Shown: piece after piece, positions 39,928 through 44,289 of the stretch
Layout of the letters: each line of letters begins with the position of its first letter
Position numbering within the stretch: position 1 is the first letter of the stretch
Assembly: GCA_003218975.1 (NCBI GenBank)
Contig: QHPD01000114.1
Coordinates: 1-49,240, forward strand
Direction of reading: 5' to 3'
Length of the DNA stretch: 49,240 nucleotides
Source of the DNA: Verrucomicrobiota bacterium
GTDB lineage: Bacteria; Verrucomicrobiota; Verrucomicrobiia; Chthoniobacterales; UBA10450
The notes under the pieces: generated by a model
What the model was told of the DNA's origin: nothing
What the model saw: the letters and a program-made list of their open reading frames with translations, nothing else
Databases searched by the model: none
Made by a program: the position numbers and the translations under genes

Positions 39928-40908
39928 ATGAAGCGCTCTTCGTTATCGAATTCCCCAGCAGATCGACAACCTGAGATCCACCAAATCCTGGCGATCCTCC
40001 ACAAGTGGGGGATTCATACCCTTGGGCAGCTTGCGGCGCTGGATAAGGAGCAGCTTGGCGCACGCCTTGGCCCCGAAGCCATCCGAATGTGGGAGCGCGC
40101 GAACGGGCAATCCAATCGAGTGCTCAAACTGGTTCGACCGCCGGAGTCATTCGAGGAGAGTTTCGAATTTGAAAATGAAATTGAAACGGCCGAGCCGCTC
40201 CTGTTCATGCTCCGCCGCTTTTTGGAGCAGCTCGCAGTGCGGTTGAGCGCGATTTATCTCGTCGCAAAAGAACTGACGCTACGAATCACTTTTGCAGGCA
40301 AACACAATTACGAGCGGGTTTTCAAAATTCCGCAGCCGACCAATGATGTCGATCTTCTCTTCCGCATGCTGCACACGCATCTGGAGAATTTTAAATCGGA
40401 GCATCCGATCATTGCTGTCGCGCTTAGTGCGCAGCCAATTAAACCCGCCAGGGAACAATTCGGATTATTTGAAACCACATTACGCAATCCCAATCAGCTT
40501 TATGAATCGCTGGCGCGATTGACCGCATTCCTCGGCGCTGATCGAGTCGGCACGCCGGTTTTGGAAGAGACCCATCGACCGGATGCATTTCGAATGGAAC
40601 CGTTCACGTGGCATGGGCTTCCAGCCCATCCTATCGACAAGATGTCGATGCCACGGCCTGCGCTACGAAGATTTCGGCCCGCCGCACCTGCATCAGTCTT
40701 GTTGGATGAAGACACGCCTGCGCACGTTCGCGGCGTAGATTCCTGCGGCAAAGTCGTTAGGCAACACGGCCCCTATTTGTCTTCTGGAAATTGGTGGGAC
40801 GAAAAATGGTGGACGCGCGCCGAATGGGATCTGCAACTGGAGGACGAGAGTTTGATTCGGTGCCACGAGAGCGAAGGAACCTGGAACATTGATGGAATCT
40901 ATGACTGA
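39928..40908 (+). CDS. imuB: ImuB C-terminal half (separate gene)
   Basis: 326 residues homologous to ImuB from just after the point where the 33432-33953 half stops. A helix-hairpin-helix segment (LHKWGIHTLGQLAALDKEQLGARLG) comes first, then a Y-family little-finger-like domain (about 55-215), the FGLFE motif that resembles a beta-clamp or ImuB-type interaction site, and the GNWWDEKWW...EWDLQL C-terminal domain. The first ten residues (MKRSSLSNSP) are not family sequence and look newly acquired. A 47-bp palindrome at 40608-40654 adds about 16 residues in frame. dnaE2 follows on the same strand. Confidence 0.88.
   Translation: MKRSSLSNSPADRQPEIHQILAILHKWGIHTLGQLAALDKEQLGARLGPEAIRMWERANGQSNRVLKLVRPPESFEESFEFENEIETAEPLLFMLRRFLEQLAVRLSAIYLVAKELTLRITFAGKHNYERVFKIPQPTNDVDLLFRMLHTHLENFKSEHPIIAVALSAQPIKPAREQFGLFETTLRNPNQLYESLARLTAFLGADRVGTPVLEETHRPDAFRMEPFTWHGLPAHPIDKMSMPRPALRRFRPAAPASVLLDEDTPAHVRGVDSCGKVVRQHGPYLSSGNWWDEKWWTRAEWDLQLEDESLIRCHESEGTWNIDGIYD
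40608..40654. repeat. cloverleaf-like palindrome inside imuB C-terminal half
   Basis: Outer arms GTGGCAT (40608-40614) and ATGCCAC (40648-40654) enclose two hairpins: ATGGGCT-TCC-AGCCCAT (40613-40629) and CGACA-AGA-TGTCG (40635-40647). It is read in frame as TWHGLPAHPIDKMSMPR, which interrupts the family stretch between DAFRMEPF and ALRRFRPA. Confidence 0.8.
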
Positions 40909-41026: not shown

Positions 41027-42283
41027 ATGTGTTACATCGAGTTACATGCGTGCAGCGCGTTTAGCTTTTTGCGGGGCGGTTCGTTCCCGGAGCAATTAGC
41101 TGAAGTCGCGGCCGAGTTGGAAATGGCGGCGATGGCTTTGCTCGATCGCAATGGCATTTACGGCGCACAACGATTTTCTGTCGCCGCGCTGGAAAATAAT
41201 GTGCGGCCGATCATCGGCTGCGAGTTATCGATGGAAGACGACAGCATTCTGCCTGTGCTGGTCGAAACCCGGGTCGGCTACAAAAATTTGTGCGAACTCC
41301 TGACCCAGGCGCATTTGCGCAGTGAGAAAGGAAAATGCGCAGCGCGGTGGGATGAACTGCAGCAATTCGCGAAAGGCTTGGTCGTTTTTCTGGGTAGCGC
41401 ATGCGTCTCGCGTGCTGGCGAGGGCGTCCTCGCCATCGCGAACTTTTCTGGACGTGCGAATTCCATGACGAGTGGCGAATCCTCAGAAAGATTGTTTCGG
41501 CGCGACGCCGAAACCAGCACGCGAGACGCATGCGCTCCCCAGATTCGTGCCCAGTTTCTCATCGATGCGTTCGGTCCTGAAAATGTGTTCGTGGAAATCC
41601 AGCGGCATTTCATTCGCGGCGAAGACCGCATCAATCGTGAACTTGTCGATCTTGCGCGTACAAATCGATTGTCGATCCTGGCCACGAACGGTGTACAGTA
41701 CGCGAAGCCGTACGGGCGCGAAGTGCTGGATGTCTTCACCTGCATTCGCGAGCACACTCATCTGGATACTGCCGGAAAGTTGCTCGCGCAAAATGCCGAG
41801 CGCCATTTGAAAAGCGATCGTGAAATGCGCGAACTTTTTCGCGATTTACCAGAAGCGATTGAAAATACGTCGCGACTGGCCGAGCGGCTCACGTTTTCGC
41901 TGGAAAATCTTGGGTACGAATTTCCTGAATATCCGGTGCCGGCCGGTCATACGATGGATTCATTCTTGCGCACTATTGTCTGGTTTGGCGCGCAACAACG
42001 TTATGCTGCGATCAGCATCAAGGTGAAGCACCAGCTCGAAGAAGAACTCGCACTCATTACGAAGCTCGGTTTTGCCGGCTATTTTTTGATTGTCTGGGAC
42101 ATCGTCAATTTCTGTCGCGAACACAACATCATGGTTCAGGGCCGCGGCAGCGCCGCGAACAGTGCGGTTTGTTATTGCCTAGGGATCACGCCGGTTGATC
42201 CGGTGAGCAACCATCTCGTGTTCGAACGTTTTTTAAACGAGAGCCGCAAAGGCTGGCCGGACATCGATCTCGATCTTCCCTGA
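41027..42283 (+). CDS. dnaE2: DnaE2 error-prone polymerase, N-terminal fragment
   Basis: 418 residues covering the PHP domain and the palm start of DnaE2, the C-family translesion polymerase of the ImuA-ImuB cassette. It opens MCYIELHACSAFSFLRGGS with PHP motifs, and a 153-bp palindromic element is read through in frame (about residues 122-172). It continues through AGYFLIVWDIVNF and QGRGSAANSAVCYCLGIT to WPDIDLDLP, where D414 and D416 match the two catalytic Asp of E. coli DnaE (D401, D403). A frameshift then gives a stop at 42281-42283. The rest continues in another frame. Confidence 0.88.
   Translation: MCYIELHACSAFSFLRGGSFPEQLAEVAAELEMAAMALLDRNGIYGAQRFSVAALENNVRPIIGCELSMEDDSILPVLVETRVGYKNLCELLTQAHLRSEKGKCAARWDELQQFAKGLVVFLGSACVSRAGEGVLAIANFSGRANSMTSGESSERLFRRDAETSTRDACAPQIRAQFLIDAFGPENVFVEIQRHFIRGEDRINRELVDLARTNRLSILATNGVQYAKPYGREVLDVFTCIREHTHLDTAGKLLAQNAERHLKSDREMRELFRDLPEAIENTSRLAERLTFSLENLGYEFPEYPVPAGHTMDSFLRTIVWFGAQQRYAAISIKVKHQLEEELALITKLGFAGYFLIVWDIVNFCREHNIMVQGRGSAANSAVCYCLGITPVDPVSNHLVFERFLNESRKGWPDIDLDLP
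41390..41542. repeat. 153-bp palindromic element, copy 1, in frame within dnaE2
   Basis: Terminal inverted repeats of 29 bp with one mismatch (begins CTGGGTAGCGCATGC; the inner 23 bp at 41396-41418 and 41514-41536 match perfectly). Inner hairpins are GGCGAGG-GCGT-CCTCGCC and GTTTCGGCG-CGA-CGCCGAAAC. Length is exactly 51 codons with no stop, so the gene reads through it. Copy 2 at 43639-43791 has the opposite orientation. Confidence 0.92.
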
Positions 42284-44229
42284 ACTTTTCGCCGAGCATT
42301 ATTGATCGGTTCTCGCACCTGTTCGCGAATGGCGATTTCCCACACACCATGGATTTGGAATCTCAGATCGAGCAGGCGGGTTTGCCAAAAAATCATCCGC
42401 GCATGCCGGCGTTCATTCGATTGTATCACGCGATTTATGGATTGCCACGACACCTTGGTCAGCATTCTGGTGGCATGATTATCTGCCAGAACAAACTCAG
42501 TTTGTTTGTCCCGCTGGAAAACGCCTCGATGCCAGGTCGTGTCGTCGCGCAATGGGACAAGGACGATTGCGAAGACCTAGGCATCGTGAAGGTGGACTTG
42601 TTAGGCCTCGGCATGATGTCGGTGATGCAGGACGCGTTTGAGTTATGCCGCGAACGCGGCCGGCCACTCGATCTGGCGCACATCCCGAAAGATGACGAGA
42701 AGACGTTCGAGATTATGCAGCGCGCCGACACGATCGGCATTTTCCAAATCGAGAGTCGCGCCCAAATGGCCACTTTGCCGCGGATGAAACCGAAATGTTT
42801 TTACGATGTCGTGATTGAAGTGGCAATCATTCGGCCGGGACCGATCCAAGGTGACATGGTGCATCCGTATCTGGCGCGTCGCGCTGGACGCGAACCGCCC
42901 ACATATTTTGATCCGCGTCTGGAGCCTGTTTTAAAACGCACGCTCGGTGTCCCGTTGTTCCAGGAGCAAATGCTCAAGATCGCAATGGTAATGGCGGATT
43001 TTTCCGGCGACGAAGCGGAAGAGTTGCGTCGCGCGCTGAGCTTTCATCGTTCTGAAGAACGGATGAACAAGGTCTGTGCAAAATTGCGCATAGCGATGGA
43101 ACGCAAAGGTGTGACCCCGGACAAGATCGACAAAATCGTCCAGTCCATCTCATCGTTTGCGCTTTACGGATTTCCGGAGTCACATGCGATCAGTTTCGCC
43201 ATTCTGGCGTATGGCAGCGCGTATTTAAAAGTGCATCGTGCGCCGGAATTTTATGCGAGCCTGTTGAACAACCAGCCGATGGGTTTTTATACGCCTGCGA
43301 CGATTGTCAAAGATGCGCAGCGGCATGGGCTGAAGATCAAGCCGGTTTGCGTCTTTCAATCCGAATGGCGTTGCACGGTCCTCGATGACAACACGGTGCG
43401 GTTGGGATTTTGCGTGGTGAACAGATTGCGGCAGGAACACGCTGAGGAACTCGTTAGGCAACGACGGGATCGACCATTCGATTCGTTGGATGATTTCAAG
43501 CGTCGTGTCCCGCTTTCAAGAGATGAATTGCGCACAGTAGCGGAATTGGGTGCGCTCAATTGTTTTGCTGAGCATCGCCGTGCGGCGATGTGGGAAGTGG
43601 AGGAGGCGCTGCACGATGACTTGCTCGATCGGACGACTCTGGGTAGCGCATGCATCTCGCGTGTTGGTTTCGGCGTCGCGCCGAAACAATCTTTCGAAGG
43701 ATTCACCACTCGCCATGGATTTCGCGTGTGCAGAAAAGTTCGCGATGGCGAGGGCGCCCTCGCCAGCACGCGGGACGTGTACGCTACCCAGAAACTGCTA
43801 TCGCCGCTTCAGCGAATGACCTTACCCGAACGCGTGCGGGCCGATTACGAGACTATGAACCTGACGACCGGGCCACATCCGATGAAGCTTTTGCGCAGAA
43901 GGTTGCCGAATATTTGGCGGGCAATCGATCTTCCGCACGCGCGACACGGTTCGATCATTCAGATCGCTGGAAATGTCATTTGTCGTCAGCGTCCGGGCAC
44001 GGCGAAGGGATTTGTTTTTATCAGCCTCGAAGACGAAACCGGCGTTTCAAATGCAATTGTCGAGCCAGACTTGTTCGAACGGTTCCGGCTGGTGATCACT
44101 GAAGAAGCCTTTCTGCTCATCGAAGGCGAAGTGCAGAATTCTGACAATGTGGTTTTGATTAAAGCGCGCGAGATCAGACCGGTTGCGCACGAACAACTCG
44201 TCGGAAGCGAGTCACACGATTTTCATTAA
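42283..44229 (+). CDS. dnaE2: DnaE2 error-prone polymerase, C-terminal fragment
   Basis: Homology resumes at 42283 in a different frame (NFSPSIIDRF...), and a possible new ATG is at 42349, which would give 626 residues. It includes LPRHLGQHSGGM, the third catalytic Asp (VKVDLLGLGMM, D83 counted from 42349), the fingers region, the helix-hairpin-helix domain and an OB-fold end (AGNVICRQRPGTAKGFVFISLEDE). The highly conserved DnaE2 segment that normally follows DIDxDF (ITYRxRSAxRxVGKxLG type) is missing, so some tens of residues are deleted. A second 153-bp palindrome is read in frame. Polymerase activity is doubtful. Confidence 0.87.
   Translation, partial: NFSPSIIDRFSHLFANGDFPHTMDLESQIEQAGLPKNHPRMPAFIRLYHAIYGLPRHLGQHSGGMIICQNKLSLFVPLENASMPGRVVAQWDKDDCEDLGIVKVDLLGLGMMSVMQDAFELCRERGRPLDLAHIPKDDEKTFEIMQRADTIGIFQIESRAQMATLPRMKPKCFYDVVIEVAIIRPGPIQGDMVHPYLARRAGREPPTYFDPRLEPVLKRTLGVPLFQEQMLKIAMVMADFSGDEAEELRRALSFHRSEERMNKVCAKLRIAMERKGVTPDKIDKIVQSISSFALYGFPESHAISFAILAYGSAYLKVHRAPEFYASLLNNQPMGFYTPATIVKDAQRHGLKIKPVCVFQSEWRCTVLDDNTVRLGFCVVNRLRQEHAEELVRQRRDRPFDSLDDFKRRVPLSRDELRTVAELGALNCFAEHRRAAMWEVEEALHDDLLDRTTLGSACISRVGFGVAPKQSFEGFTTRHGFRVCRKVRDGEGALASTRDVYATQKLLSPLQRMTLPERVRADYETMNLTTGPHPMKLLRRRLPNIWRAIDLPHARHGSIIQIAGNVICRQRPGTAKGFVFISLEDETGVSNAIVEPDLFERFRLVITEEAFLLIEGEVQNSDNVVLIKAREIRPVAHEQLVGSESHDFH
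43639..43791. repeat. 153-bp palindromic element, copy 2, in frame within dnaE2
   Basis: Same length as copy 1 and closely similar to its reverse complement, so inserted the other way round. Ends are CTGGGTAGCG and CGCTACCCAG. The terminal repeats have several mismatches. It is read as 51 codons without a stop (GSACISRVGFGVAPKQ...), between the HhH region and the linker to LPERVRADYETMNL. Confidence 0.9.
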
Positions 44230-44231
44230 TG

Positions 44232-44289
44232 CGTTGAAGCGTTAAAGCGGTGTCGAAACGCGTCACTCCCCCGCGCCAACGCTTCAACG
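44232..44289. terminator. 12-bp inverted repeat between convergent genes
   Basis: CGTTGAAGCGTT (44232-44243) and AACGCTTCAACG (44278-44289) are perfect inverted copies with a 34-bp spacer. It fills the 65-bp gap between the convergent stops of dnaE2 and gnd. It could act as a bidirectional terminator or be another dispersed palindrome. Confidence 0.6.

Follow-up and report, generated by a model that had tools for sequence, protein, structure and literature searches.

REPIN copies in the reading frame of dnaE2

The window (the whole stretch analysed, 49,240 nucleotides of contig QHPD01000114.1 from a Verrucomicrobiota bacterium) contains a dnaE2 gene that is read in two parts, each holding one copy of a 153-bp palindromic element in frame, and a Y-family-like gene as its neighbour. 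This neighbour is probably imuB, in which case dnaE2 would belong to an SOS mutagenesis cassette. The features of the locus are the following:

39928..40908, plus strand: Y-family-like neighbour gene (Pfam IMS_C, 30.7 bits)
41027..42283, plus strand: 5' part of dnaE2 with the insert, covering the PHP domain and the beginning of the palm and ending at a premature TGA (Pfam PHP, 78 bits; DNA_pol3_alpha, 135 bits; translation)
41390..41542, plus strand: REPIN copy 1, 153 bp, 51 codons, in frame (sequence, self-match, translation)
41390..41418, plus strand: left REP, GGGTAGC and the hairpin GCATGCG-TCT-CGCGTGC (sequence; 29-nt self-match, 97%)
41417..41434, no strand: inner hairpin A, GGCGAGG GCGT CCTCGCC (sequence, fold)
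41449..41485, no strand: variable spacer of about 38 nt, where the recG copy has its RAYT gene (differences between copies; alignment of the recG copy)
41494..41514, no strand: inner hairpin B, GTTTCGGCG CGA CGCCGAAAC (sequence, fold)
41514..41542, minus strand: right REP, inverted, with the tag here GGAG (sequence, self-match)
42280..42281, plus strand: junction of a deletion of ~127 nt, 42 palm codons plus 1 base, causing a frameshift (blastn against five sister loci)
42349..44229, plus strand: 3' part of dnaE2, fingers, HhH and OB fold, with REPIN copy 2 (Pfam; NCBIfam error-prone DNA polymerase)
43639..43791, minus strand: REPIN copy 2, 153 bp, inverted relative to copy 1 and 90% identical to it, in frame within the 3' part of dnaE2 (self-match, translation)

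Directly after the dnaE2 stop lies an inverted repeat (44232-44289, 19-nt arms, 84%), which could be a terminator-like or a repeat-derived hairpin.

Copy 1 consists of 51 sense codons without a stop and reads as LGSACVSRAGEGVLAIANFSGRANSMTSGESSERLFRRDAETSTRDACAPQ; its start at 41390 and its end both fall on codon boundaries of the open reading frame that begins at 41027, and the corresponding frame of the opposite strand contains a stop. The initial annotation, which had described a stop-free in-frame palindrome of 153 bp at this place, gave its limits exactly, and the 29-bp terminal inverted repeats and two inner hairpins that it had reported are both recovered, the former as a 29-nt self-match and the latter by sequence and fold. 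The arms of the element (41389-41428 and 41504-41543) show 88% complementarity along 40 nt, and as single-stranded RNA it folds with -94.5 kcal/mol versus -56.2 for shuffles (z = -9.0). This z score and the existence of more than 30 copies rule out a chance palindrome. A GTAG tag stands at the foot of the short hairpin in the left arm; in the right arm of copy 1 it reads GGAG, and GTAG in most copies. By this anatomy, in which GTAG-tagged REP hairpins face each other around two inner hairpins and a centre that varies between copies, the 153-mer is a REPIN.

Inverted REP pairs of this type are dispersed in multiple copies in the same genome and also in the sister species examined. BLAST returned 67 matches in the genome of the window, corresponding to 15 full-length copies (77-100% identity) and many halves (20 or more partial copies), half-matches being frequent because the central ~40 nt are variable. 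When 29 of these places were read in context, 3 interrupted a recognisable protein (dnaE2 twice and recG once) and the rest, in the usual manner of REPs, were intergenic, which rules out for this genome that the copies lie generally inside genes. The length from GGTAGC to GCTACC is a multiple of three in both dnaE2 copies versus 3 of the 12 measurable intergenic copies. Counting the copies within coding sequences, a check proposed in the initial annotation, therefore gives a divided answer: the pair in dnaE2 are the only REPINs here that break up a recognisable protein, but both sites are in frame in about 30 sister species.

In these sister species dnaE2 is present and, as far as the contigs permit, its frame stays open across the insert sites; G046, with a frameshift, is the one exception. 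Sites 1 and 2 contain either in-frame inserts of the copy-1 family, in either orientation, or short scars, and they also hold inserts of the GSTGCQPV, GSAGASPAVSRASRDT and GSARLQR types, with a further type, CHPERSEGP..SARDD, at site 2. That unrelated palindromic families re-use the same dnaE2 loops suggests that insertions are filtered by what the protein tolerates. Copy 1 lies in a tolerant PHP-domain loop, in line with the likely surface loop of the initial annotation, and a structure search with DnaE, whose matches included no DnaE2, placed the insert between segments matching residues ~151 and 178 of PDB 5lew. The outcome for DnaE2 is probably a flexible, near-neutral loop of roughly 45-51 residues. 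A third in-frame site with a different repeat was also observed in dnaE2 of four sister loci, L149, L150, L154 and L155 (PSPQSS..RGGREA inserts, PSPQSSPWPGRGGREAPVR), and the third-site insert of G046 (L151) coincides with its frameshift.

The dnaE2 frame of the window is broken ~740 bp downstream of copy 1 by the deletion listed above, which seems to be either a genuine later loss, unrelated to the insert, or an assembly fault. This frameshift makes the translation of copy 1 doubtful here despite its open frame, and the gene may be dead. The initial annotation had named a pseudogene with a frame kept by chance as what would refute its reading; that concern partly applies to the gene in the window, but the in-frame claim is upheld in its core by about 30 sister species, where dnaE2 is intact and both sites are in frame.

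RAYT elements inside host genes

A search of the same genome for Y1 transposases identified three inside long open frames, namely metH, recG and carB. The RAYT embedded in recG (C63:50282-50731) is flanked by the same REPs, with both halves of the 153-mer in unchanged order, positions 3-59 of the query on one side (82%) and 97-152 on the other (88%), so that the 153-mer corresponds to that element with the RAYT replaced by ~38 nt. At L188 (2747-2804) and other recG loci a stop-free REP-derived peptide, RQAAANNRLAACAPQ-M..., comes before the recG reading frame, so that REPs also abut or extend the recG start. The other two host genes have peculiarities of their own. Two in-frame RAYTs (C150:3-311 and 2271-2717) lie in metH, in one 1230-aa frame that is cut by the contig end (L118, G000:C150:1-8000), and a divergent RAYT stands in frame between the halves of the sole carB (L120, G000:C161:10000-19500), a RAYT being present in carB at 12 more sister loci as well.

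Among 36 listed Y1 matches in 35 genomes of the genus, most of them fragmented MAGs, the frames measure 569-1619 aa and the hosts are carB, recG, metH, alaS, a tsaC/Sua5-like gene and rarA. The HVH motif is present in all of these matches and the catalytic Tyr-x-x-NP in nearly all. The MAG G022 has two recG copies (C334 and C129), one 99% and the other 91% identical to the genome of the window; it is likely a mixed bin and unsuited as a fully independent relative.

Using an alignment of embedded RAYTs, we then scanned 84,980 named species and obtained 79 loci, all of them in Verrucomicrobiota (Chthoniobacterales, Limisphaerales, Akkermansiaceae, Prosthecobacter and others). Embedded copies account for 72 of them (recG 31, alaS 24 at two sites, metH 13 at two sites, thrS 3 and priA 1) and stand-alone genes for 7, in a sample that the query, made from embedded copies, biases towards the embedded clade; the host names thrS, metH and priA rest on motifs seen in the translations. 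In an even sample of the class, the 16 closest matches are without exception parts of 730-1398-aa frames, and several come from genomes of 10-40 contigs, whereas across the phylum most RAYTs are ordinary stand-alone ORFs of 150-280 aa. Embedding is thus a habit of this lineage and is not common to all RAYTs.

In the genomes checked, the alaS that carries a RAYT is the only alaS, and its two halves together score 785-850 bits (cut-off 457) with 0 profile positions missing; the RAYT-interrupted sole carB of the window's genome likewise lacks no profile position and reaches 1503 bits versus ~1530 for uninterrupted relatives, and a 907-aa fusion passes the RecG equivalog cut-off. The domain excised from this RecG fusion scores 82.6 bits and passes NF047646 (NCBIfam REP_Tyr_transpos, cut-off 80), the whole fusion scoring 76.9; against the IS200 family cut-off of 55 it obtains 25 bits, which places it outside IS200/IS605 TnpA. 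The only solved relative found for the embedded RAYT is the TnpA_REP of PDB 4er8 (E 6.5e-4). In recG, the RAYT has a dN/dS of ~0.12, a value for which few pairs are unsaturated; host-side values for alaS (0.45-0.55) were left out, as that alignment looks faulty. Of the 72 embedded copies, 7 have an in-frame ATG in the stretch of 30 codons that precedes the RAYT fold, whereas in most stand-alone RAYTs a Met directly precedes the REP peptide. This scarcity suggests translation through from the host, with GTG or TTG as possible internal starts. On these sequence features, the host enzymes appear to be made with the transposase inside. The AlphaFold model of the RecG-RAYT fusion (mean pLDDT 58, pTM 0.35) is usable only for the disorder of the REP-encoded linkers at ~355-409 and 552-583 (pLDDT ~30) and for a RAYT core of moderate confidence (pLDDT 63-84); a fold search with this model recovered RecG (1gm5) and was otherwise uninformative.

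A tree of 90 RAYTs requires 22 changes of host gene versus 53.6 with shuffled labels, which corresponds to a long stay in one host gene and yet repeated host switches. In sister species the recG site is empty, scarred, occupied by a REPIN only (G044) or occupied by RAYTs with different REP types. Genomes whose recG carries a RAYT of matching type have more REPINs per Mb (p = 0.0006; counts saturate at 25 scored candidates, and phylogeny and completeness are uncorrected), and a second REP family shows a weaker effect (p = 0.04, n = 4 versus 9, equally uncorrected for phylogeny and completeness). Mobilisation of REPINs by the recG RAYT would be consistent with this correlation in copy density.

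Relation to known elements

Intragenic GTAG-REPs and REP dimers were described in 2013, with the verrucomicrobium Opitutus terrae, where uvrA is a host, as the richest case and with dnaE2 genes among the hosts (Di Nocera 2013, PMC3733652); the initial annotation had known of no such description for Verrucomicrobia. Those dimers share with the present element the GTAG foot, the hairpin, the inverted dimeric arrangement, the multiple copies and, in some cases, the in-frame position in DNA-repair genes of one verrucomicrobium, but they typically encode 20-30 aa (PMC3733652), whereas the present element has 51 codons and two additional hairpins. Beyond what was described for them, several families re-use the same protein sites across the genus and the RAYT itself is found in frame in host genes. 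The 153-mer itself belongs to the already described intragenic GTAG-REPs, and what appears to be new is the RAYT in frame inside single-copy enzymes, an arrangement for which a literature search, with thin coverage of subscription journals and preprints, found no earlier report.

The RAYTs of Pseudomonas fluorescens are stand-alone genes in intergenic REPtrons, unlike the present RAYT, which is encoded within RecG, AlaS, MetH and CarB as one of their inner domains. Inverted REP pairs and a RAYT flanked by the same REPs are common to both systems (Bertels and Rainey 2011, PMC3116915). In TnpA_REP subclass 2.4, REPs occur in frame inside the tnpA_REP gene and leave its coding sequence unbroken (Quentin 2018, PMC6006769); there the REP lies within tnpA_REP, but here REP and RAYT together lie within host genes. 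Unexpectedly long proteins were dropped from that survey as fusions or annotation errors.

The initially proposed likeness to the Rickettsia palindromic elements (RPEs) holds insofar as both are palindromes inserted in frame in protein genes, as the dnaE2 copies are, but not in kind, the present element being a GTAG REP dimer tied to a RAYT. We know of no transposase for RPEs. These are palindromes of 105-146 bp fused in frame in protein genes, and one host enzyme, Gmk, was shown to be active (PMC2229807). RPEs belong to another phylum, and RPE-4 and RPE-6 are of the CGTC type, whereas the present element is of the GTAG type and the CGTC tag was not found in it; the GTAG tag and the RAYT link rule out an RPE. 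In-frame RPEs and MITEs had been described before 2013.

With homing-endonuclease inteins the embedded RAYTs share a nuclease domain in frame in conserved single-copy genes. Unlike inteins, they have no splicing motifs, they occupy tolerant loops or linkers, and their peptide is expected to stay; the intein splicing residues (C/S at the N-terminus, HN before C/S/T) were not found at the inspected ends of embedded elements.

Origin of the insert and alternative explanations

We consider it likely that the 153-mer is a non-autonomous REPIN that arose from a RAYT element in its own genome when a short spacer took the place of the transposase, moved by an HUH enzyme and surviving in frame in permissive loops. 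The HUH transposase would move both the REPIN and the RAYT forms via single-stranded DNA, and insertions into genes would survive only in a permissive loop or linker and only if their phase and length leave the frame intact. The REP ends would then give a disordered peptide in the host protein, and RecG, AlaS, MetH or CarB would be produced with the RAYT as one of their inner domains, so that the element would borrow the promoter, the start codon and the essentiality of its host. What is read directly from the DNA in this account is the REP anatomy, the recG element with the same ends in order, the repeated in-frame dnaE2 sites and the in-frame RAYTs with catalytic residues. With somewhat less assurance, we favour the wider proposal of a RAYT lineage that lives inside single-copy essential enzymes (RecG, AlaS, MetH, ThrS, CarB), with an ORF running through both REP ends and normally lacking an ATG, and that seeds REPINs, as an intein-like parasite without splicing.

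The recurrence of the same dnaE2, recG and alaS sites in many species would also be expected if insertions targeted specific DNA in host genes and were not filtered by protein tolerance; we regard such hotspots as an unlikely cause, because unrelated families (CHPERSEGP..SARDD and PSPQSS..RGGREA) occupy the same or nearby dnaE2 loops and the sequence contexts differ between host sites. It is rather improbable that the RAYT or the hairpin has been domesticated and kept for host benefit, for example as a RecG-tethered HUH nuclease at stalled forks or as a ribosome-pausing hairpin between domains. The purifying selection on the RAYT, its long retention in one host gene and the frequency of DNA-repair hosts (recG, dnaE2, priA, rarA) would fit that proposal, but alaS, metH, carB and thrS are equally frequent and share no DNA function, recG sites are empty, scarred or REPIN-only in sister species, and an active selfish element, which has to spare its host, would likewise be under selection on its transposase frame.

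Decay or artefact, with the frame kept by chance in pseudogenes or produced by misassembly, gains some weight from the frameshifting deletion in the dnaE2 of the window and from the majority of MAGs among the genomes. The same in-frame architecture nevertheless recurs in many species that were assembled independently, some of them in 10-40 contigs, sister dnaE2 genes are intact, and the catalytic motifs and dN/dS of the RAYT are constrained, which makes this explanation very unlikely and leaves it largely refuted for the family as a whole. Removal of the insert after transcription, by protein splicing, RNA splicing or ribosomal bypass, recalls the intein-like choice of conserved single-copy hosts but is scarcely credible: the ends read G-S-A/T...A-T/P-Q, with no terminal His-Asn or conserved splice residue, a strict frame and sense codons would be needless for bypass or RNA splicing, and partial scars persist in dnaE2 (GSACATQ in G004, GAGAPQ in G019 and GSTEG in G040).

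In the prevailing view REPs are extragenic and RAYTs are lone domesticated genes, and long RAYT proteins have been discarded as errors. If the fusion proteins are produced as the sequence indicates, the transposase can persist as part of an essential enzyme, which would explain how RAYTs are retained without a promoter of their own, and the embedded lineage would offer a direct handle on how RAYTs are maintained and move REPINs. The insertions also offer natural domain-insertion maps for AlaS, RecG, MetH, CarB and DnaE2, and they carry the warning that automated annotation will miscall RAYT-carrying host proteins. One alaS (G140:C141:5850-9950) contains two RAYTs at different sites within a single 1398-aa frame.
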